From positions 1 through 32,663 of the forward strand of contig CAUJEC010000167.1 in assembly GCA_963169245.1 (NCBI GenBank): DNA of 32,663 bases, in the 5' to 3' direction. Below, one piece after another: positions 1-12,241 of the stretch (position 1 is the first letter of the stretch; each line of letters begins with the position of its first letter). The notes below the pieces were generated by a model. That model was not told where the DNA came from. It saw only the letters and a list, made by a program, of their open reading frames with translations, and did no database searches. The position numbers and the translations under genes were made by a program. Source of the DNA: Actinomycetota bacterium (GTDB lineage Bacteria > Actinomycetota > Acidimicrobiia > Acidimicrobiales > Microtrichaceae).

Positions 1-3000
1 GCGGTGAGCGACCGCTCCCCACCGGACAGGAGCGAGAGCTTGCGCACGTTCTTGCCCGAGGGCTTGGCCTCGATCTCGATGCCGGTCTCGAGCAGATTGT
101 TCGGATCGGTCAGCTTGAGCTTTCCCTCGCCACCCGGGAAGAGGGTCTCGAAGAGCTTGGTGAAATTGATGCTCACGTCTGCGTACGCGGCCGTGAACAC
201 GTTGACAATCTCTTCTTCGACAGCCCGGATGACCTTGGAGAGTTCACGTCGCGTCGACCGGATGTCGTCGAGTTGCCCCTCAAGGAATGTGTGTCGCTCC
301 TGAAGTTCTGTGAACTCCTGTAGCGCCAGCGGGTTGATCGGCCCCATGAGGCGTAGCTCTCGTTCGAGTTCCCTCACACGAGCCGCAGGAGAGACACCGT
401 CTGGCAATGCGGGACACACGGCGGAGATCGCCTGATCGGGCTCGGTGTCGAGTTCGCTGCGCAGAGTCGTGGTCGCCGTCTCCAGTCTCAGCTTCGTTTC
501 GGCATCTTCGATCTCGGCCTTCTGGATCTGGGCACGGATCTCTTCAAGCGACTTCTCGGATGCTGACCGTTCCCGTCTCATTGCCTCGAGGCCGCCAGCA
601 ACCGAACGAGCGGCCTCCGACTGGCGTCGTTGCTCCTCGCGAAGTTCACCGAGGTTGGACTCGATCGTCGAGACCCTCGCTGTCACGAAGTCGTGTAGTC
701 GATCAGTGGCCTCGGCACGGGCATGCAGTTCGACTCTGCGCGCAGTGGCAGCATCACGTTCTGCGATGTTGCGTTCAAGCCGCTCGTCGATCTGCTCGAG
801 CCTTGCGGAGACGAAGCGACGTCGTTCCTCGATTGCTGCAGTGCGAACCTCGAGATCGGTTCGCATGGATGCAACCGTTGCCGAGTGGGTCTCCAACTGG
901 CGACGGGCCTCGGCGATCGCCCTCGCCTTCTCCCCCAGTTCTGCCTCGGCGGCCTCAAGTTCGGGAAGGGCGGCCTCCAACTCCCCTACACGCACTGCCT
1001 CCCGTTCGCGCCGCATGGCGATCTCGGAGATGTGGCCAACCAGAGACGCCAACTCGGCTTCGGTTTCGGCAACCTCACTGTCCAGACGGGTGATCGCCTG
1101 CGCTGAGGACTTGCGCGTCGCCTCGAGCGAGTCACGTTTGCGTATCGCGCTCTGTTCGTCCTGCCTCAGTTGAGCGACGGTCGCCCTGGCGGATTCCATC
1201 CGCGCCCTGGCTCCACCACGAGCCTCATCGGAGAGTTCGACTTGACTGCGAGCCTCCTCCAGTGCGGCGCCCGTGGCGCCGGTGCCACTTGACCCCAGCC
1301 TCCAGCCCGAGGGTCCGAAGCGATCACCGTCACGACTGATGACAATTGCGTCTGGATTGACCGATGCGACCTGAAGTGCTCCGGTCCAGTCGGCATCCAC
1401 CACCACGGCTCCGACGAGAAGCCTGTCGAGGAGACGTTCTATGGCTTCTGGGTCCGACTCGGAACCAGAAGTCCGAAGTGCGCGGACGTGGTCACGGATC
1501 GGGGTCCCACCGGCGACCACCGACCGAGTGACCGCTGCGATGCCCTCAAGTGCCAGGATCGCTCCACGGTGGTCACCGGACTCGAGCGCCCGTAGAGCGG
1601 CTGTGGCGACGTTGATGTCTCGGACCACCACCGCGTCGAGCGCCTCACCGGCTGCAGCCTCGAAGGGACCCTCCCAGCCGTCGTCAACCTGGACCAGATC
1701 GAGAAGTGTTCCGAGGACCCCGTTGAGCCCAGCCAGATGTTCGGCTCCCGCTCTCTGGCGCGCGTCATCGAGAGCCAGAGAGAGAGCCTCGGAGCGGGCC
1801 TTCCAGCCCGAGTACTCGCTCTCGGCCGCTGTCGAAAGCGACTCGGCCTCGAGCAACTCGGCCTCTGCGGCCACGCGGCGTTTCGTGGCCTGTTCCACGT
1901 CGCCGGCTGTCTCGACGGTGGCTGTCTCGGCCCCCTTCGACTCGATGACCGCCTTGTGATGATCGGCACGCTGTCGCTCGATCCGTTCTGTCAGCGACTG
2001 TTGTCTCAGTTGAAGTCGTTCCTCATCGGCTGCAGTGCGCCCGATGGCCGACCGAAGCGCATCGAGTTCGCCGCGTACTGCTGAAGCCTCGCCGGTGGGT
2101 GCGATGACCCCGTCACCCCACTCCGTCTCGAAGTCCACTCGGGCTCCGGCAAGAGCATTCTCGGCAACTCGGAGTTCGTCGGTCGACCCGATCAGGGCGT
2201 CGCTGTCTGTCGCGATCTGAACCTGTTCGCCACGCAGACGCGACTGTTCCGACTCAAGCGATGCGATTACGCCCTCGTCGACAGATACGTTCAACTCGCG
2301 CTCAAGGCCTCGGCGTCGTTCAGCGAGTAGAGCCGTGAGTCCGCGAGCCTTCTCGGAGAGCTTTTCGTAGCGGACGAGTGAGTCGCCCAGATCACGACCG
2401 CCAAGAGAACCCAACTGGGATTCCGCGGTGATGATCCGCGTGTCCATCTCCGCGAGCGCTACACGAAGTTCCTGATCGGAGCGGCGAAGTTCTCCCTGCC
2501 TAGTGGAGGACTCCGTGAGTCGGGCGCGGAGACGGGCGAGTTCACGTCCGCTCAGGTGCACTCGTAGAGCGGTCAGTTCTTTGACGAGTGCTCCGTGCCG
2601 TCGTGCCGCGTCGGCCTGTCGTTCGAGTGGCCGCAGTTGACGTCGAACCTCTCGGAGCAGGTCCTGCACACGCGTCAGGTTTGCTTCGGTCGCCGTGAGC
2701 CGACGTTCGGCGCGCTCCTTGCGACGACGGAACTTGAGGACTCCAGCCGCCTCCTCGATGATCAGGCGCCTGTCCTCCGGGCGAGCGTTCAGTACGGCAT
2801 CGATGTTGCCCTGAGAGATGATGACGTGCTGTTGTTTGCCGACACCGGAGTCGGAGAGCAGATCCTGGATATCGAGCAGGCGACACGGAACGCCGTTGAT
2901 CGCGTACTCGCTGTCTCCGCTGCGGAAGAGCAGACGGGTGATTGTCACCTCGGTGAACTCGATCGGCAACATCCCCGCCGAATTGTCGATCGTGAGCGAC

Positions 3001-3268: not shown

Positions 3269-4102
3269 TCAGACCTGCGTCTGCTCGCAGTAGTAGGTGT
3301 AACCGCTGCTGAAGCGCGACTTGACGATCGGCCCACGAGCTCTGGGACTCATCTCACCGTCGCGTTTGAAGACAGTGATGTACTCGTTGTACCCACCGGG
3401 CTCGCCCATGAGTCCAACCCAGCCGTCCTCACCAATGGTGGTTCCGCCGTATTTGACGGCGTCGTGGATTGTCTCGACCACGGCACGATAGAGGCGTCGG
3501 ATCTCCTGCGTGGAGAGGCTGGCCGGTGTGCGATCGAATCGGAGACCAGCATGGAAGAGGATCTCGTCGGAGTAGATCATGCCGATACCGACCATGAAGG
3601 TCTGGTCCATCAGTATCGACTTGAGCTTCTGGTCCCGACGCAGCAGACCCTCTCCAAAGGTTGTCCACGAGATCGGCTCGTCGATCGGGTCCACGCCTAG
3701 TTCGGCCAGTTCTGGGTGTGTCTCGGCGAGTTCGTCGACGCCGATCAACTCGAGCGTCGCCTCCTTCTTGGGATCCACGATCCGCAACTGTCCCCCCTGA
3801 GTGAATGTGAGAACCAGGGCGGTCCCCGCTTCGACAGCATCCTTGGCCTGATTCCGGGTGAGGCGCGTGTGCCCTCCGAGGCTGAGTACCAACAACTGCT
3901 CGTTGTCGAGCCCGATGAGGAGAAGCATCCCCTTTCGGGTCACATGAGTGATCTTCTGCCCCTCGACTCCTGCCACGAACGCCTTTTTCGTCAATGGCTT
4001 CACCATTGACACAACGGACAGATCAGCCTCCTTGATCTTCCGCTCGTTGATCTCTCGTTCGAGGTCGCGTCTGAGTGTCTCGAGTTCAGGTATCTCAAGC
4101 AT
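3269..4102 (-). CDS. Fpg/MutM-family protein with degenerate active site
   Basis: A 277-residue protein with the Fpg/Nei fold, in the position of fpg (mutM) between rnc and smc. Canonical Fpg removes oxidised purines and cleaves AP sites. Here the start reads MLEIPELETLRRDL where Fpg has MPELPEVETIRRDL, so the catalytic N-terminal proline is Leu2; Glu3 and Glu6 remain. The beta-hairpin lysine position falls on Gly58 or Met59, with a neighbouring Lys57. The LGMSG loop is LGGHT, DPRRFG is DPKKEA, and the phosphate-binding Asn of GxGNxY is Met175. The zinc finger keeps one cysteine (Cys272) of four. ATG 4102 has a strong GGAGGAGG site and overlaps the rnc stop by 8 bp, suggesting translational coupling. 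The intact frame and well-preserved remainder suggest a selected, probably non-glycosylase DNA-binding role (inference). Confidence 0.85.
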   Translation of the reverse strand: MLEIPELETLRRDLEREINERKIKEADLSVVSMVKPLTKKAFVAGVEGQKITHVTRKGMLLLIGLDNEQLLVLSLGGHTRLTRNQAKDAVEAGTALVLTFTQGGQLRIVDPKKEATLELIGVDELAETHPELAELGVDPIDEPISWTTFGEGLLRRDQKLKSILMDQTFMVGIGMIYSDEILFHAGLRFDRTPASLSTQEIRRLYRAVVETIHDAVKYGGTTIGEDGWVGLMGEPGGYNEYITVFKRDGEMSPRARGPIVKSRFSSGYTYYCEQTQV

Positions 4103-4838
4103 GGTCCTCCTCCACTTCGTGTTCGTTCCTGTCGTGTCCGACGACAAAAGCGTCGGACGTGCTCTGATCGCTATGGGCCATCAGGCGTTTCAACGCCCTT
4201 CTGGCCGCCGCCTGTTCCGCTGCCTTTTTGGTGTGCCCATCGCCCGAGCCACAGACCTCCCCATCGACAACCACCTCGGCGGCAAAGCGCTTCTCGTGCT
4301 CGGGGCCTTCTTCCCTTATTCGGTACGCCGGCACCTCACCGAAGTCCCGTGCGCTCAATTCCTGTAGTTGCGACTTGTAGTCCGTTGTCAGATCACCGGC
4401 GAGCACAGTATCAAGCTGCTGACCCACGACACGGAGAATCACCGCCTCAGCTGCTGAAAGTCCAGCGTCGAGGAAGACCGCCCCTATGACAGCTTCGAGA
4501 GCATCGGCCAGAATCGAGGACTTCTCACGGCCACCGGTTGCCGACTCTCCCTTGCCGAGTTGGAGCGAATCACCAAGGTCCAATGCCCGAGCGAAGCGCG
4601 CCAGAGCAGTTGAGGAGACAAGTTCGGATCGATTGCGGGCAAGCACACCCTCACTTCGGTCCGGCGCTCTACGGAACAGGTGATCCGTTACAACGACACC
4701 GAGGACTGCGTCGCCGAGGAACTCAAGCCGTTCGTTCGACTCGACACCGCCATTCTCGGAACACCAGGAACGGTGACGAAGGGCCAGATCGAGCAGGTCA
4801 GGGTTAACGAATGTGTGGCCGATGCGCTCGGACAGCAC
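4095..4838 (-). CDS. rnc: Ribonuclease III
   Basis: Endoribonuclease that cuts double-stranded RNA in rRNA and mRNA processing. From the GTG at 4838 it is 247 residues. The catalytic domain has NERLEFLGDAVLG, giving Glu37, Glu40 and Asp44, and DALEAVIGAVFLD, giving Asp112 and Glu115, the expected metal ligands. A double-stranded RNA-binding domain follows at about 150-225, ending in the HTKKAAEQAAARRAL helix, then a charged tail. The start is not certain: GTG 4838 has AGGGG upstream and fits the family N-terminus, while a TTG at 4910 would add 24 residues and overlap the acyl carrier protein gene. The stop overlaps the Fpg-like start by 8 bp. Confidence 0.95.
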   Translation of the reverse strand: MLSERIGHTFVNPDLLDLALRHRSWCSENGGVESNERLEFLGDAVLGVVVTDHLFRRAPDRSEGVLARNRSELVSSTALARFARALDLGDSLQLGKGESATGGREKSSILADALEAVIGAVFLDAGLSAAEAVILRVVGQQLDTVLAGDLTTDYKSQLQELSARDFGEVPAYRIREEGPEHEKRFAAEVVVDGEVCGSGDGHTKKAAEQAAARRALKRLMAHSDQSTSDAFVVGHDRNEHEVEEDHA

Positions 4839-4896: not shown

Positions 4897-5172
4897 TCAG
4901 AGTCGCGCAAGGACGTAGTCAACAGCGTCTCGGACCGTCTTGAGGTCCTCAAGGTCCTCATCCTCGATCCTGAAACCGGACGAGTACTGATCAAACTCGT
5001 CCTCAATGGCCTCGGCCAATTCGATCAACTCGATCGAGCCCAGGTGGAGATCTTCGGTGAAGGAGTCGGACTCGTTGATGGTTCCGGGCTCAACCTCAAG
5101 AATGTCGGAGAGTTGGTTCCGGATTCCGTCCAAGACGCCGGCTCGATCTGGTTTCTGTGTCTCGGCTCCCAA
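4897..5172 (-). CDS. acpP: Acyl carrier protein with atypical GSI phosphopantetheine site
   Basis: Small acidic protein of 91 residues that would carry fatty-acyl intermediates on a 4'-phosphopantetheine arm. The helix-II motif is DLHLGSIELIEL where most ACPs have DLGxDSLxxVEL. The carrier serine (Ser46) is kept, but the preceding Asp, which helps recognition by the phosphopantetheinyl transferase, is Gly. The TTG start at 5172 is chosen because GAGGAG lies just upstream; a GTG at 5235 would add 21 residues not typical of ACP. It sits between rpmF and rnc, where other bacteria often have plsX-fab genes plus acpP. No plsX is present here, and 244 bp without a recognised gene separate it from rpmF. 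Confidence 0.85.
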   Translation of the reverse strand: MGAETQKPDRAGVLDGIRNQLSDILEVEPGTINESDSFTEDLHLGSIELIELAEAIEDEFDQYSSGFRIEDEDLEDLKTVRDAVDYVLARL

Positions 5173-5416
5173 TTCCTCATCTCCTCGTTGATTGTGGTGA
5201 AGGCACCGGTCCACGATACGGGAACCGGGCACCACCTCGCGCCTTCAAAACTGCGAACATGGCGACACCAAACACTTTGGCCTCAGTTGCCTCTGGGCGG
5301 TTGAGTCAGGTACGGCGACGCATCGCGGCATCACAGGACCTTGTCACTTTGGTCCACCGCTCAATGCGGCCGTCTGCCCGACGGGGCAGCGAGACTGCAG
5401 CGCGGGCGACGGGTTC

Positions 5417-5596
5417 TCAGTCGACTTCGATTGCCTGACGGCCGTTGTACCAGCCGCAGTTCCCACACACGACGTGTGGAAGCTTGACCGCGCGACAGCG
5501 TGGGCAGGTGCTCCTCGGAGCGGGCTTGAGGGTCCAGTTGGAGGCTCGGCGACTCCGGCTCTTCGACTTGGATGTCTTCTTCTTCGGTACGGCCAT
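5417..5596 (-). CDS. rpmF: 50S ribosomal protein L32
   Basis: Protein of 59 residues starting MAVPKKKTSKSKSRSRR, the standard L32 N-terminus, followed by a zinc ribbon with Cys31, Cys34, Cys44 and Cys47 (CPRC and CGNC). It is a structural protein of the large ribosomal subunit. The four-cysteine form is the zinc-binding paralogue type. It lies 138 bp downstream of yceD, the usual yceD-rpmF pairing. A short GC-rich hairpin (CTGCCC/GGGCAG, 5374-5389) lies just past the stop, but it has no T-run and is not called as a terminator. Confidence 0.97.
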   Translation of the reverse strand: MAVPKKKTSKSKSRSRRASNWTLKPAPRSTCPRCRAVKLPHVVCGNCGWYNGRQAIEVD

Positions 5597-5734: not shown

Positions 5735-6262
5735 CTAGTCAGTGTCGTCGTCGGAGTCGAAGCGGAGGCCATCGAGGGCAGCCCAACGGGGGTCCTTGGA
5801 CTCGACGGCCGCTTCGGCATCGAGAATTGGGAAGTCATCAGGAGCGGGACCGGCACAGTCGTCCCGACAGATCGGAGCGATGGGAAGGCTGAGTATCACT
5901 GCGTCCTTGAGGGCTGCACCCACGTCGATCGCCTCGTCGACAATCGGCAACATGTCCTCGAGCGGATCGGCCCTGTATATCTCGTTCACCTCGAAGGAAT
6001 TGATTCCTTTGGCGGGCCCAAGACATCGGCGACACTCGCCCACCCAGGGAACTGTCACCTCTGCGGTCAGAACGATTCCTTCGTTGATCGAGTCGAGGAT
6101 CACCTCGACATCCACCAGAGTTCCGTCCGGTATGTGAGCGGTCGAGGTTGCGAGACCGCTGACGTCCACCTTGGCATCGATCACCTGCCTGCTGCCGCGA
6201 CGCCGCAGCAGGTCGTGTACGCCAACCGAGATGACTGAGGTGTCCAACGGAGACTCACTCAT
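5735..6262 (-). CDS. yceD: YceD/DUF177 family protein
   Basis: Protein of 175 residues of the YceD (DUF177) family, which is linked to 23S rRNA accumulation and is usually encoded just before rpmF, as here. The conserved core reads VPWVGECRRCLGPA with Cys77 and Cys80, and a second pair ICRDDC with Cys132 and Cys136, suggesting a metal site. The C-terminus has the family's DPRWAALDGL motif before an acidic tail. ATG 6262 overlaps the stop of the upstream SepIVA-like gene by 8 bp. The frame is open further upstream only as a shadow of that gene's repeat tail, so the longer version is rejected. Confidence 0.9.
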   Translation of the reverse strand: MSESPLDTSVISVGVHDLLRRRGSRQVIDAKVDVSGLATSTAHIPDGTLVDVEVILDSINEGIVLTAEVTVPWVGECRRCLGPAKGINSFEVNEIYRADPLEDMLPIVDEAIDVGAALKDAVILSLPIAPICRDDCAGPAPDDFPILDAEAAVESKDPRWAALDGLRFDSDDDTD

Positions 6263-7109
6263 CCTGATCGAACACGGCAGGGCGATGGCCGGACCCATCG
6301 TCGGGCTCAGGTGCACCGCCCCCACCTTCGGGCTGCCGTTGAGGAGATGGGCGTCGCTGCTGCCCCTTCTGTGCTTGACTCTGCCGTCCTTGCCCCGGCC
6401 GTGGTTGCCCCTGGCGGGCCTGACCCTGCCGTGGTTGCCCCTGGCGGGCCTGACCTTGTCGCGATTGGCCCTGCCCCTTGCGAACAGCACGGGTCTGACC
6501 TGTGCGGGGACCGCTGCCAGCACGCTCAGCCGCAGCGGCCAAGGCAGCTTCTCCGAGCTCTGACTCTTCAACGGTCGGAGCTGCGAGTCGATCGCGCATC
6601 TTGCCGACCTGCTTGTGCAGCTTCACCAAGGCATTCTCGTACCTTGCGAGTTGCTGGTCGCAGTAGTCGTCGGCCTCTCGGCGCCGACGACGCGAGATCC
6701 GCTCGGCCTCTTCGATGATGGAATCCGCGCGGGCTTGGGCGTTCTTGACTATCTCGCGCTTCTCAACAAGTCTCGCCGCGTTGGTCTTTGCTCGCTCGAT
6801 GATGGCCTGTGCCTCTCGTTCTCTCTCAGCGAGGAACGCCTCTCGGTCCTTCAGCAGCCATTTGGCCTGACGGACCTCCTCGGGAAGACGGTCGAGCGCA
6901 TCGCCGAGCATCTCGAGGATCTCATCCTTGTTGACGCGCACCGTCGAGGACATCGGCATTGATGGCGAGGTGTCAATCAGCTCCATCACCCGCGAGATGA
7001 TCTCGTCCGATTCAGGCATCAGGTAGTCAGTGTCGTTGTCGCCATGACGATCACCGCCACCTGAGTCGGAGGCATGGCCACTGTGTTCGTCGTATCTCGA
7101 TGAACTCAT
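6255..7109 (-). CDS. SepIVA/DivIVA-like coiled-coil protein with G/Q/R repeat tail
   Basis: Protein of 284 residues. The N-terminal 25 residues are polar and disordered. Residues about 55-185 form a charged, continuous coiled coil rich in Glu, Arg and Ala (for example REREAQAIIERAKTNAARLV), as in DivIVA and F-type ATPase b-subunit-like proteins. In mycobacteria the gene beside the yceD homologue is SepIVA (Rv2927c), a DivIVA-like septation protein, so position and architecture both support a division or envelope-growth role. Residues about 200-250 are a low-complexity tail of GQxRQGQ units, followed by a proline/glycine-rich acidic end. A GGAG site precedes the ATG at 7109. The function is inferred from synteny, not from catalytic motifs. 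Confidence 0.75.
   Translation of the reverse strand: MSSSRYDEHSGHASDSGGGDRHGDNDTDYLMPESDEIISRVMELIDTSPSMPMSSTVRVNKDEILEMLGDALDRLPEEVRQAKWLLKDREAFLAEREREAQAIIERAKTNAARLVEKREIVKNAQARADSIIEEAERISRRRRREADDYCDQQLARYENALVKLHKQVGKMRDRLAAPTVEESELGEAALAAAAERAGSGPRTGQTRAVRKGQGQSRQGQARQGQPRQGQARQGQPRPGQGRQSQAQKGQQRRPSPQRQPEGGGGAPEPDDGSGHRPAVFDQDE
6399..6455 (-). repeat. 30-bp tandem repeat in the SepIVA-like tail
   Basis: A 30-bp period: bases 6399-6425 recur exactly at 6429-6455. It encodes two copies of the ten-residue RQGQARQGQP block. Shorter imperfect copies (GQxR units) extend on both sides. Recent slippage-type expansion is likely. Confidence 0.9.
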
Positions 7110-8285: not shown

Positions 8286-9002
8286 TCAGTTCCCCGATGT
8301 GGAACCGGAGTTGATTGCGGCTGATGGTGGAAGTGTGGGAAGTGACGACTCGGGGGTGAAGGTGATGACGAAAGCCGAGCCGTCCTCGAAGAACGGAACC
8401 TCCTGGGGGTCCTCCACCACCACGACCAAGCCGTTGCCGGTCTTTACCGCCTCTCGCGAGTAGACCCAGACAGCAACCTTGCCCTTTACCCCTGCGCACT
8501 GCGCTCCGTCGGTGAAGGTAGCTCCCGCTATGGGAACGGTCGCATCGCGTACCGTGAGTTCGGCCGGGGTGATCGAAGCGGGCAACCCGAGCGAGCCGGT
8601 CGACAACTTGGCCCCCACCGACTCGATGTAGGCGCCGAGTGTCGAGAAGTGGCCGGCCTCACCTGCGTTGGTGGGGGCGATGTCCACGGTTCCATCGGCG
8701 TTGGGGGTGACCCCTCGAACGGTGTCACCGGCGGGGGGATTCAGGAACTGACCGCACACGTTCAGAGCAACCGATGCGCGCCACCTGTCGCCGACCTTGG
8801 GGCCGGGGCCGGACTGGCGAACCTGGGAAACCATCATCTGGGGCGGCGCCAGGTGCGAGCCGTGCTCGGACTCTGATGTTGTCGTCCTCGCCTCGGGCGT
8901 TGGATCGGCGTTCTTACAGCCACCAAGGAGGAGCGCAGCCAGGACGATGGCCACTGGAACGAGCCCGGTCACAAATCGCTTGGCTGATCGGAGGTGTCTC
9001 AC
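8286..9002 (-). CDS. Putative lipoprotein of unknown function
   Basis: Protein of 238 residues. A basic N-terminus (MRHLRSAKR) is followed by a hydrophobic stretch and the lipobox LLGGC, with Cys29 the predicted lipidated residue, so it is probably exported and anchored to the membrane. The mature part starts with a Thr/Ser/Glu-rich linker, has two further cysteines (in NVCGQF and AQCAGV) that could form a disulfide, and ends in a Ser/Gly-rich tail. I do not recognise a catalytic motif or family. The GTG start at 9002 lies 8 bases after a TAGTCT hexamer, so it may be transcribed almost without a leader. The stop is 1 bp from the rsmD start. Confidence 0.75.
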   Translation of the reverse strand: MRHLRSAKRFVTGLVPVAIVLAALLLGGCKNADPTPEARTTTSESEHGSHLAPPQMMVSQVRQSGPGPKVGDRWRASVALNVCGQFLNPPAGDTVRGVTPNADGTVDIAPTNAGEAGHFSTLGAYIESVGAKLSTGSLGLPASITPAELTVRDATVPIAGATFTDGAQCAGVKGKVAVWVYSREAVKTGNGLVVVVEDPQEVPFFEDGSAFVITFTPESSLPTLPPSAAINSGSTSGN

Positions 9003-9095: not shown

Positions 9096-11258
9096 TCAGT
9101 TCTTCTCAAGGAACTCTGCTTCCTCCTCAGCAATGAAGACCGACGTCTCCTCGGTCAGTGCCAACAGCGCCGGTGCATGCTCCGGGGAGTCGATCAGATC
9201 GAAAGCGCTGGCGCGAGCCTTCTCGATCCACTCGCCGTCCCGGCTGAGCGACGCGAGCCGAAGATCTGAACGTCCCTTCTGACGCTGACCCATGATCGTT
9301 CCCTCACCTCGCAGTTCCAGGTCAACCTCGGCGAGCTTGAAACCGTCGGTCGTTGCAACCATGGCGCCCAATCGTTCGCTGCCCTCCTCGGAAACGGCCT
9401 CACCGCTGACAAGTACGCAGTAGGACCGATCCGACCCGCGACCAACCCGGCCACGAAGCTGATGTAGCTGAGCGAGCCCAAAACGATCAGCATCGAGGAT
9501 CACCATGACGGTCGCATTAGGAACGTCAACTCCGACCTCGATCACTGTCGTCGCGACCAACACATCAAGTCTGCGCTCCCGGAAGGCACCCATGACTTCG
9601 TCCTTGTCGTCGGAGGACATCCGGCCATGCAGCAGTCCAACCGCAAGCCCTGAGAGTTCTCCCTCAGCCAGCGAGGCTCTGGTCTGCTCCGCCGATGCGG
9701 CCTGGATCTTCTCTGACCCCTCGACCAGCGGGCAGACGACGTATGTCTGGCGTCCGATCGAGACCTGCTCGCGAACAAGGCTCCAGGTGTCATCCTGATC
9801 AGAGATCGACGAAGCCCAGATCGTCTCGACCGGTGTCCGACCCGGAGGCAACTCGTCGAGAATCGTCATGTCGAGATCGCCATAGACGGTCATGGCTGCG
9901 GTTCGGGGTATGGGAGTTGCAGTCATGACCAGCACGTCCGGGTGACGTTCGCCTGCCCGGAGCGAGTCACGTTGCTCCACTCCAAAGCGGTGCTGTTCAT
10001 CGATGACCACCAGGCCGAGGGACCGGAAACGAACCGACTCCTCGAGAAGTGCGTGAGTTCCGACGAGGATGTCCATTCGGCCAGCGTCGAGCTCCTCGAG
10101 AATTCGTCTGCGTTCAGCAACCCTGACCCGTCCACTCAGCAGGCCCACCGTTACTGGACGGTCCCCGAGCAATGATCCGGCCTCTCCTACTCGCAGATGT
10201 CCCACGAGTGCCCTCAGCGACTCGGTGTGCTGCTCGGCGAGAACCTCTGTCGGGGCCATGAACGCTCCCTGATGACCCGCCTTTACCGCTGTCAGGAGCG
10301 CAACGAGCGCCACCAACGTCTTACCGGCTCCCACATCGCCCTGGAGTAGCCGGTGCATCGGTACCGGCGAGGTCATATCGGCGGCGATCTCGGCGATCGC
10401 CCGTCGCTGTGCCCCGGTGAGTTCATAGGGCAGTGACCTATAAAACTCACCGAGCAAGTCCTCGGGCCGTGCCCCTTCGCCGTTGGGCAGATGCCGGAAA
10501 CCCATCTGCTCACGTTCGATCTGACGCTTTCGCCCAACGAGTGATACCTGGATTCGGAGGAGTTCATCGAAGACGAGTCGTCTACGAGCAATCACCATTT
10601 GGGCCATCGTCTCGGGGAAATGGATGGAATTGAGCGCATCCTCTCGTGGGACGAGGTCATGGGCCTTGAGAATCGAATCCGGTACAGGGTCGCAGATCCC
10701 GCGTTGTCGACAACGACGAAGCGTCTGTGACACCAGAGCGGCGACGTCGCCTGAGGTCAGCCGGACCTTCTCGCTCATCGGGTAGATGGGAACGATCCGA
10801 CCGGTCTGGTCGCCGATCATGTCGACGAGAGGATTGGTCATCTGGGCTCGCCCGTTGAAGCGTTCGACCTTGCCGTAGAGCGCCACTTCGACACCTTCGA
10901 CCGCCTCCAACTGACGCTGGCGCCATGGTTGGTTGAAAAAGCTGCACCTGATCGTTCCGGAACCGTCGGCGAAGGTTGCGTTGACCATCACCCTTCGCGA
11001 CCGGGTACGCCTTGTCTCCACGCAGCGCAGCGTCGCCAAAACCAACGACGATTCACCCTCCTTCAGATCCCGTATCCGTCGAGGGCTGCTGCGGTCGATG
11101 TAGCGACGAGGGAAGTGGGTGAGCAGGTCCAGAAGATTCTCTATGCCGAGCGAGGCGAGGGCGGATTGCCTGGCCGGGCCGACACCGCTCAGTCGACCGA
11201 CAGACATCTCCGTCAGATCGCTGTAGCTGATCTCGTTGGGGGAGTCTGTGTTCGACAT
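9096..11258 (-). CDS. recG: ATP-dependent DNA helicase RecG
   Basis: Branch-migrating helicase of 720 residues that remodels stalled replication forks and recombination junctions. The N-terminal wedge/OB region covers about 20-160 (GRLSGVGPARQSALASLGI and LTHFPRRYIDRS). Helicase domain 1 has Walker A GDVGAGKT at 307-314 and DEQH at 420-423, which is the RecG-specific box. Domain 2 has the ATTVIEVGVDVPNA and QLRGRVGRG motifs. The length is normal. It starts 38 bp after the DAK2-like gene, as in many actinobacteria (rpmB, DAK2 protein, recG, rsmD, coaD). Confidence 0.97.
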   Translation of the reverse strand: MSNTDSPNEISYSDLTEMSVGRLSGVGPARQSALASLGIENLLDLLTHFPRRYIDRSSPRRIRDLKEGESSLVLATLRCVETRRTRSRRVMVNATFADGSGTIRCSFFNQPWRQRQLEAVEGVEVALYGKVERFNGRAQMTNPLVDMIGDQTGRIVPIYPMSEKVRLTSGDVAALVSQTLRRCRQRGICDPVPDSILKAHDLVPREDALNSIHFPETMAQMVIARRRLVFDELLRIQVSLVGRKRQIEREQMGFRHLPNGEGARPEDLLGEFYRSLPYELTGAQRRAIAEIAADMTSPVPMHRLLQGDVGAGKTLVALVALLTAVKAGHQGAFMAPTEVLAEQHTESLRALVGHLRVGEAGSLLGDRPVTVGLLSGRVRVAERRRILEELDAGRMDILVGTHALLEESVRFRSLGLVVIDEQHRFGVEQRDSLRAGERHPDVLVMTATPIPRTAAMTVYGDLDMTILDELPPGRTPVETIWASSISDQDDTWSLVREQVSIGRQTYVVCPLVEGSEKIQAASAEQTRASLAEGELSGLAVGLLHGRMSSDDKDEVMGAFRERRLDVLVATTVIEVGVDVPNATVMVILDADRFGLAQLHQLRGRVGRGSDRSYCVLVSGEAVSEEGSERLGAMVATTDGFKLAEVDLELRGEGTIMGQRQKGRSDLRLASLSRDGEWIEKARASAFDLIDSPEHAPALLALTEETSVFIAEEEAEFLEKN

Positions 11259-11296: not shown

Positions 11297-12241
11297 TCAG
11301 GAGTCCGATTGGGCTCCCACCGTTGCTGGCTCAGCTCGCGCCCCCTGGAGCTCTATCCGAAGTTCAGTGGGTCGTCCGACTTCACACAGAGCCTCGATCG
11401 CCCTGCCCGCGTCCCGGGTCCGCAGTTCCAGACGACAGCGATCCCCAAGTATCTCGAATACGTCAAGAGAACCCAGATCATTCCAGGTCGACTCGATCCA
11501 GGCGCATGACTCGATCCAGGAGCCGTCGCTCGTTCCAGCGGACTCGAGCGGAATTGCGGTGCAGACCACGAGGAAGATGGGTGACTCGTCATCTGCACCG
11601 ACGAGGACCTCTACCGGTGCCTGCGGAAGCTGATCCCCGGTGACAATTGCCGCCAGGGAATCAAGGACCAGAAGAAACCCCGCCGCGGTGGCATCCACGA
11701 CACCGACCTCTGCCAGCCTGGGGTTGGCCACTACGCCGGACTCGAGCTCATCGAGGCCCTCGTCCGCCGCTGCGATAATCACATCGGGAAGGCCTAGACC
11801 CTGATCGGACGCCCGCAACGCACCCTCGGATGCAGCAGACACAACCGCTGTCGGACCACCTGGATCCACAGAACCATCACGCTCACGGAGTCTCTCTGCT
11901 GCAAGTTCCAGCACCAACGCGAACCGACCTGCGTCGATCGAATCGGCGCCGGACGCCACCTCGGCGAACGATGCGAACAATTCGAGCAGCACTTGTCCGG
12001 GGACCGAACCCGACGCCGTTCTCGCTCCGTTTGCCATCGCCGATGCGATCGAGACCAGGTCGGATGCCGTTGCAGCAGACTCCACTGCTGATGCGAGTGC
12101 CTCGGTCAGAACAGTGCCCACACCGCCCGATTCGATTCCGCTGAGCGTGTCGAGCGCTTGGGCATGTTCATCAAGCACTCCTGAGATCCGGACGAACGCA
12201 TCCTTGAGTTCTCCGGCGTGGAACTCCGTGACCAACGCCAT
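11297..12241 (-). CDS. Degenerate DAK2/FakA-like protein
   Basis: Protein of 314 residues related to the DAK2-domain proteins (FakA, the fatty acid kinase) normally encoded beside recG. Family landmarks are visible: NPRLAEVGVVDATAAGFLL matches the conserved VVDAGGxGFLL segment, and RDAGRAIEALCEVGRPTELRI matches the TDDVGxAIEAGIExGRP segment. The kinase motif DGDTGTN, whose aspartates bind Mg-ADP, is replaced by SGGVGTV (38-44), the preceding NVFPVP is missing, and GARGNSG has become GARTASG. It is also far shorter than the usual 530-560 residues. It is probably not an active kinase (inference). ATG 12241 has TAGGA about 10 bases upstream; the frame extends further but without support. It is divergent from rpmB. 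Confidence 0.8.
   Translation of the reverse strand: MALVTEFHAGELKDAFVRISGVLDEHAQALDTLSGIESGGVGTVLTEALASAVESAATASDLVSIASAMANGARTASGSVPGQVLLELFASFAEVASGADSIDAGRFALVLELAAERLRERDGSVDPGGPTAVVSAASEGALRASDQGLGLPDVIIAAADEGLDELESGVVANPRLAEVGVVDATAAGFLLVLDSLAAIVTGDQLPQAPVEVLVGADDESPIFLVVCTAIPLESAGTSDGSWIESCAWIESTWNDLGSLDVFEILGDRCRLELRTRDAGRAIEALCEVGRPTELRIELQGARAEPATVGAQSDS

Follow-up and report, generated by a model that had tools for sequence, protein, structure and literature searches.

Does the protein encoded in front of recG in this contig, which resembles the fatty-acid kinase FakA and lacks its metal-binding motif, still act as an enzyme, and if not, why has the gene been kept? The window, meaning the whole analysed stretch of 32,663 nucleotides, is contig C167 of a 2.7 Mb assembly of 239 contigs that is 87% complete. 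The gene, here called pseudo-FakA, occupies positions 12241-11297 on the minus strand and runs from an ATG start without an internal stop for 314 amino acids, so that the initial annotation was right in its coordinates and in describing a clean frame. Although the frame stays open upstream to 12397 (TTG), the methionine of MALVNEF starts both the window protein and its same-genus homologue. On the same strand, 38 bp downstream, lies recG (9096-11258, minus strand; NF008168 819 bits, cut-off 718; TIGR00643 694 bits, cut-off 659), confirming the neighbour that had been named, and the divergent neighbour on the other side is rpmB, encoding L28 (12446-12703, plus strand, by Pfam), whose true start is probably an internal ATG. 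The closest named relative found was the metagenome-assembled genome Microthrixaceae bacterium HKST-UBA20, with 52% identity over the best-matching segment, and the family label Microthrixaceae used here rests on that one named genome. A frameshift or assembly artefact was ruled out, as none of the 21 stretches matched in the family contains an internal stop and one of them (G005) comes from a single-contig assembly; three of these rows (L006, L037, L038) are truncated at a contig end or by masked bases. Two further proteins of the locus are recorded as observations in their own right. The one at 8286-9002 (minus strand), in the recG-rsmD interval, matched no Pfam or NCBIfam family, has a 41% identical copy in G005 and was not matched by tblastn in L111-L117 or at the G001 locus. 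The one at 6255-7109 (minus strand), between coaD and yceD, matched no Pfam family above cut-off and is 36-52% conserved across the nine compared loci that reach it.

Profile searches and fold comparison both place pseudo-FakA in the FakA/DAK2 family, as had been proposed. Residues 47-197 passed the Pfam Dak2 cut-off (E 2.4e-6, 28 bits, cut-off 27), and matches below the curated cut-offs came from NCBIfam YloV (residues 43-209, E 6.8e-11, 41.4 bits against 396.1) and FakA_VfrB (23.5 bits against 975). An AlphaFold2 model built on 50 alignment rows, which included active homologues and may be guided by them, reached a pLDDT of 90.4 and a pTM of 0.74. It predicts a FakA_N-like barrel of eight long helices and one short helix (residues 9-201), followed by a FakA_L-like alpha/beta domain of ferredoxin type with the order beta-alpha-beta-beta-alpha-beta (residues 222-299; 11345-11578, minus strand). 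The first-ranked Foldseek match to the model was S. suis FakA (7w7h; E 3.4e-14, 309 columns), and the barrel aligned with S. aureus FakA_N (8vit) at a Z of 27.8 and an rmsd of 2.3 over 208 residues. The second domain matched many ferredoxin-like domains at Z 7-8.4, and as the comparison tool marks this as a common arrangement, no function was read from these matches. An origin from DhaL, the ADP-binding subunit of dihydroxyacetone kinase, was dropped since FakA_N fits better (Z 27.8 vs 23.5); DhaL has the same barrel fold, whereas pseudo-FakA adds FakA_L and lacks the metal-binding Asp set of DhaL, with no Asp in the D38 and D40 columns. The protein is 43% shorter than the 548-residue S. aureus FakA (length from the excerpted text of PMC9136124), close to the roughly 40 percent given by the initial annotation, because FakA_C is absent. 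That domain (PF13684) found no match in the window's own genome (87% complete) or in any of the 33 family genomes. Among the matches listed outside the family, open frames mostly span about 520-880 amino acids, with one of 335 (G042), one of 1435 and several shorter frames that end at contig ends.

In order to judge what has been lost from the site itself, the residues assigned to FakA function in the excerpted text of PMC9136124 were followed through the alignments. According to that text, Asn32, Asp38 and Asp40 hold the two Mg ions, Thr41 and Asn82 contact the phosphates, Asp185 contacts the ribose, and Cys240, His282 and His284 of FakA_L are assigned to catalysis. The segment ESGGVGTV (residues 37-44; 12110-12133, minus strand) aligns to PDGDTGTN of FakA in the class and represents a dead Mg/ATP loop. 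The window protein has Ser at N32, Ser or a gap at D38 depending on the alignment, Gly at D40, Val at T41 and Val at N82, and in FakA_L it has Glu at H282 and Arg at H284; the Cys240 column contains no Cys in the class rows examined. The idea that the Asp motif had merely moved elsewhere was dropped, as no segment resembling DxDxGxN occurs in the protein and N82, H282 and H284 are lost as well. The motif loss reported at the outset thus holds, and the loss extends beyond it to Asn82, both FakA_L histidines and FakA_C.

These losses are shared by nearly all family members that carry the gene. Only one of the 21 family members, G001, keeps the Mg, phosphate and His residues. None of the other 20 keeps N32, D38, N82, H282 or H284 (three of these rows have a gap at N32 and four, the window row among them, at D38), and D40 survives only in G025 and T41 in G025 and G021. 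Outside the family, N32, D38, D40, T41 and N82 are present in 32/32 class loci (one row being cut at its N end) and H282 and H284 in 33/33. These 33 loci were drawn from 155 matches, 26 of them from among the best-scoring and seven picked by hand, so the set leans towards close relatives. The equivalent of Asp185, Asp183 in the window protein (11693-11695, minus strand), is kept in 21/21 family members and in 33/33 of the other class loci examined.

The partners of the kinase are also undetected in all family genomes but one. DegV/FakB found no match, and PlsX and PlsY went undetected, in the window's own genome (87% complete). Across the 33 family genomes FakB, PlsY and PlsX were each found once, every time in G001, where the FakB and PlsY genes adjoin and the PlsX gene sits between rpmF and acpP. 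The controls for the family searches were positive in 6-8 of the 14 known genomes, with G001 as a positive control inside the family. As all three were found only in G001, 32 of the 33 genomes have no detected acyl-phosphate route while the FakA shell persists. The local gene order agrees: in the window, rpmF (5417-5596, minus strand) is followed directly by acpP (4897-5235, minus strand) with no plsX in the gap at 5236-5416, as is also the case in G005 and G022, and among six further genomes of the class, plsX adjoins rpmF in all five stretches that extend this far. Of 296 class genomes sampled, 154 have both a FakA-profile match and DegV and 128 have neither, leaving five with FakA alone (four of this family and G151) and nine with DegV alone. 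A search of the genome for an intact DAK2 protein and FakB, which the initial annotation had suggested, came back negative, with a single Dak2 match in the whole assembly, hence no second DAK2 protein, and no FakB.

Two other proteins of the window depart from their relatives at functional motifs. The acyl carrier protein beside rnc (4897-5235, minus strand) reads LGSIEL where six matching relatives read ADSL or ADSI, the residue before the serine being Gly in the window and Asp in the relatives; we take this serine/Asp motif to be the prosthetic-group site. MutM (3272-4147, minus strand) starts MLEIPELE, and five of the seven relatives compared start MPELPE, the other two also differing (MRELPEVE in L113, MFELPEVE in L114). 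The window MutM thus lacks the N-terminal catalytic proline, and this is perhaps the other syntenic enzyme that the initial annotation described as seeming to have lost catalysis.

With the site lost and the pathway undetected, the question becomes whether the gene is being maintained. A copy is present in 21 of the 33 family genomes, and the 20 pseudo copies span 12 genera. Absence from five of the remaining 12 genomes (G003, G008, G010, G014, G015) was set aside because recG there is missing, fragmentary or at a contig end. The other seven, from two genera, carry recG without the gene, which is therefore dispensable; in four of them rpmB lies directly beside recG, and in the other three the surroundings of recG yielded no rpmB and no FakA-like gene. 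Where present, pseudo-FakA is under purifying selection. Its dN/dS was 0.10-0.43 over 11 within-genus pairs (the maximum in G005/G006) and 0.18-0.23 in the four pairs with a dS of 0.40 or less, and the window's own pair, with G016, gave 0.22 at a saturated dS of 2.06. For five of those pairs recG yielded 0.055-0.154, with pseudo-FakA above it every time, and five pairs of active FakA_NL yielded 0.074-0.204, pseudo-FakA being mostly higher. Values below 1 yet above those of recG indicate that the constraint on pseudo-FakA is real and milder than that on recG. By this computed evidence the protein has the marks of a pseudoenzyme, namely an enzyme fold, lost catalytic residues and retention by selection.

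The constraint has also been redistributed over the protein. Seven residues, D100, E112, E116, L142, D146, A159 and E167, are each present in 20/20 pseudo members, in 1 to 9 of 32-33 other class loci, and at none of the seven places in G001; five of the seven are acidic. Mean pairwise identity is 0.40 in the pseudo clade vs 0.53 in the active set. Of 85 columns that vary in active FakA, eight are invariant in 15 non-redundant pseudo rows, and 27 of 67 columns near-invariant in active FakA have turned variable in the pseudo rows. Near-identical rows were left out of the conservation counts (L011, L012 and L015, and three active rows, reducing 32 to 29), and alignment A2 omitted L037, L038, L081 and L082. 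Site-conservation profiles correlate at a rho of 0.61 between halves of the pseudo clade and 0.72-0.81 between active sets, vs 0.07-0.15 between pseudo and active rows. The largest gain falls on residues 94-116 (11894-11962, minus strand), the top of 264 windows of 23 residues, for a stretch picked after viewing the columns, and it contains D100, E112 and E116. Residues 142-167 (11741-11818, minus strand), on helices 6 and 7 of the AlphaFold2 model, hold the other four. Each of the pairs E112/E116, L142/D146 and A159/E167 is displaced by one step from the hydrophobic core of its helix (5, 6 and 7, respectively), at places that vary and are mostly polar in active homologues. Topology and residue variability together suggest that the newly invariant residues of helices 5-7 form one exposed face, and up-down topology would put loop 97-103 and the D146 end of helix 6 at the opposite pole from the ATP loops.

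The reading that we favour, with a probability of roughly 0.6, is that pseudo-FakA is a repurposed FakA pseudokinase serving as a non-catalytic adaptor or scaffold, probably dimeric, that docks a putative protein partner through the new face of helices 5-7. The parts needed for phosphorylation have been lost, yet the gene is kept with newly fixed residues, and it therefore probably has a different, non-enzymatic job, much as had been surmised at the start. A slowly decaying relic is a rival account, in which the kinase became useless after the loss of FakB, PlsX and PlsY and weak constraint, for example through expression coupled to the downstream recG, still holds the gene. The dN/dS above that of recG and reaching 0.43 in one pair, the weak conservation of FakA_L in the pseudo clade (0.33 vs 0.67) and the four genomes in which rpmB directly adjoins recG all fit such decay. 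Decay does not sit well with frames that are free of internal stops in all 21 matched stretches, with copies spread over 12 genera at a mean identity near 0.40, with seven newly invariant positions, with a constraint that is coherent within the clade (rho 0.61) or with dN/dS well under 1, and we regard the relic as unlikely. The opposite possibility, that the protein still works as a fatty-acid kinase by means of displaced catalytic residues, can point to the retained fold, to the D40 still seen in G025 and to the T41 of G025 and G021. Given that five catalytic positions are kept in none of the 20 pseudo members and that FakB, PlsX and PlsY are undetected in the same genomes, it is very improbable.

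Two alternatives accept a new function of another kind. The barrel, with its ribose-contacting Asp, might bind a nucleotide or small ligand without Mg-dependent chemistry and switch a partner, and the Asp185 equivalent in 20/20 pseudo members, together with the highest regional conservation of the clade at residues 169-183 (0.59), speaks for a sensor. The phosphate and Mg loops show the largest conservation drops of all (0.30 vs 0.98 and 0.37 vs 0.97), and the Asp stands just before a helix in the model and may be kept as a cap; a sensor is also unlikely and ranks behind the relic. The acidic character of most of the new residues raises instead the prospect of a relocated enzyme or metal site with other chemistry, made up of D100, E112, E116, D146, E167 and perhaps H26. 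By topology these residues are scattered, on helices as well as loops and at several heights along the barrel, L142 and A159 suit an interface better, and a re-examination of Foldseek's matches, a weak check, brought out no unrelated fold for the barrel, which together leave this site doubtful and less probable than the sensor. A broader statement, that the FakA barrel now constitutes a separate, new protein family with a function of its own, that its invariant acidic and hydrophobic site (the seven residues above) serves to bind some new partner, metal or ligand, and that it was hence kept in most of the family after pathway loss, we hold tentatively, at a little under even odds. As to the suggestion of a regulator or fatty-acid binder in the initial annotation, a regulator is possible, and a fatty-acid-binding role is unsupported and not favoured, because FakA itself binds no fatty acid without FakB in the excerpted text of PMC9136124 and no FakB was found. 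Ca. Microthrix is described as importing long-chain fatty acids and as having the potential to store triacylglycerol (PMC8267870, in excerpt), and a link of pseudo-FakA to this lipid storage is only suggestive.

For the repurposed pseudokinase, a plausible history can be set against the tree. The 19 pseudo rows present in the tree, from which L038 and L081 were left out, form one clade with support of 100/99. G001 and the short G042 protein fall between this clade and the other class proteins, their mutual order being unsettled. Two changes are required on this tree for the family as labelled; G001 and the pseudo clade are not grouped together to the exclusion of others, so that the G001 gene may not be of the direct ancestor type. 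The family ancestor is likely to have carried a short FakA_NL kinase; this form retains activity in the S. aureus truncation experiments excerpted from PMC9136124, where FakB binding is assigned to FakA_C (residues 328-548) and FakA_NL alone has an apparent Km for FakB1 of 0.99 against 0.09 uM. Since G001 is short but intact, the loss of FakA_C is placed first in the simplest order that we infer, with the later changes after it. Next, phospholipid synthesis by way of acyl-phosphate (PlsX, FakB, PlsY) would have been given up, with loss of the ATP/Mg site and the FakA_L histidines. The two-domain fold, probably dimeric through FakA_L, and the place in front of recG would have been retained. The new set of invariant residues would then have arisen on barrel helices 5, 6 and 7, away from the dead ATP pocket, and a protein partner most likely docked there non-catalytically. 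Deletion of the gene in two genera would have come last. As a separate observation, the G042 protein (L075, about 1380-2318, minus strand) is a second short FakA_NL, from another family of the class, with an intact ADADTGSN and FakB in its genome.

Set beside known systems, pseudo-FakA has the same predicted FakA_N barrel and FakA_L fold as FakA (YloV/VfrB; S. aureus 7RM7/8VIT, S. suis 7W7H) and, like FakA in the class, lies beside rpmB and recG and keeps Asp185. It differs in lacking FakA_C and the Mg, phosphate and His residues, in a genome without detected FakB, PlsX or PlsY. The short forms of G001 (312 amino acids) and G042 (open frame 335 amino acids) match its two-domain length, and G001 shares its synteny; unlike the window protein, both keep the Asp and His motifs and have FakB in the genome, and G001 lacks the new invariant residues. 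Pseudokinases and pseudoenzymes in general (among the papers listed, PMC10211241 and PMC7586955) likewise combine an enzyme fold and lost catalytic residues with retention by selection, and no report of a FakA/DAK2-derived pseudoenzyme was found among the papers listed in the literature searched. Naming the protein automatically from the weak Dak2 match, for example as 'DAK2 domain / fatty acid kinase', would mislead here. As G001 has the whole FakA_NL-FakB-PlsX-PlsY set, its comparison with the window protein makes the change from enzyme to non-enzyme testable. In total, pseudo-FakA appears to be a natural case of a metabolic enzyme outliving its own pathway, and it implies that phospholipid synthesis is started and fatty acids are activated without acyl-phosphate in these bacteria.
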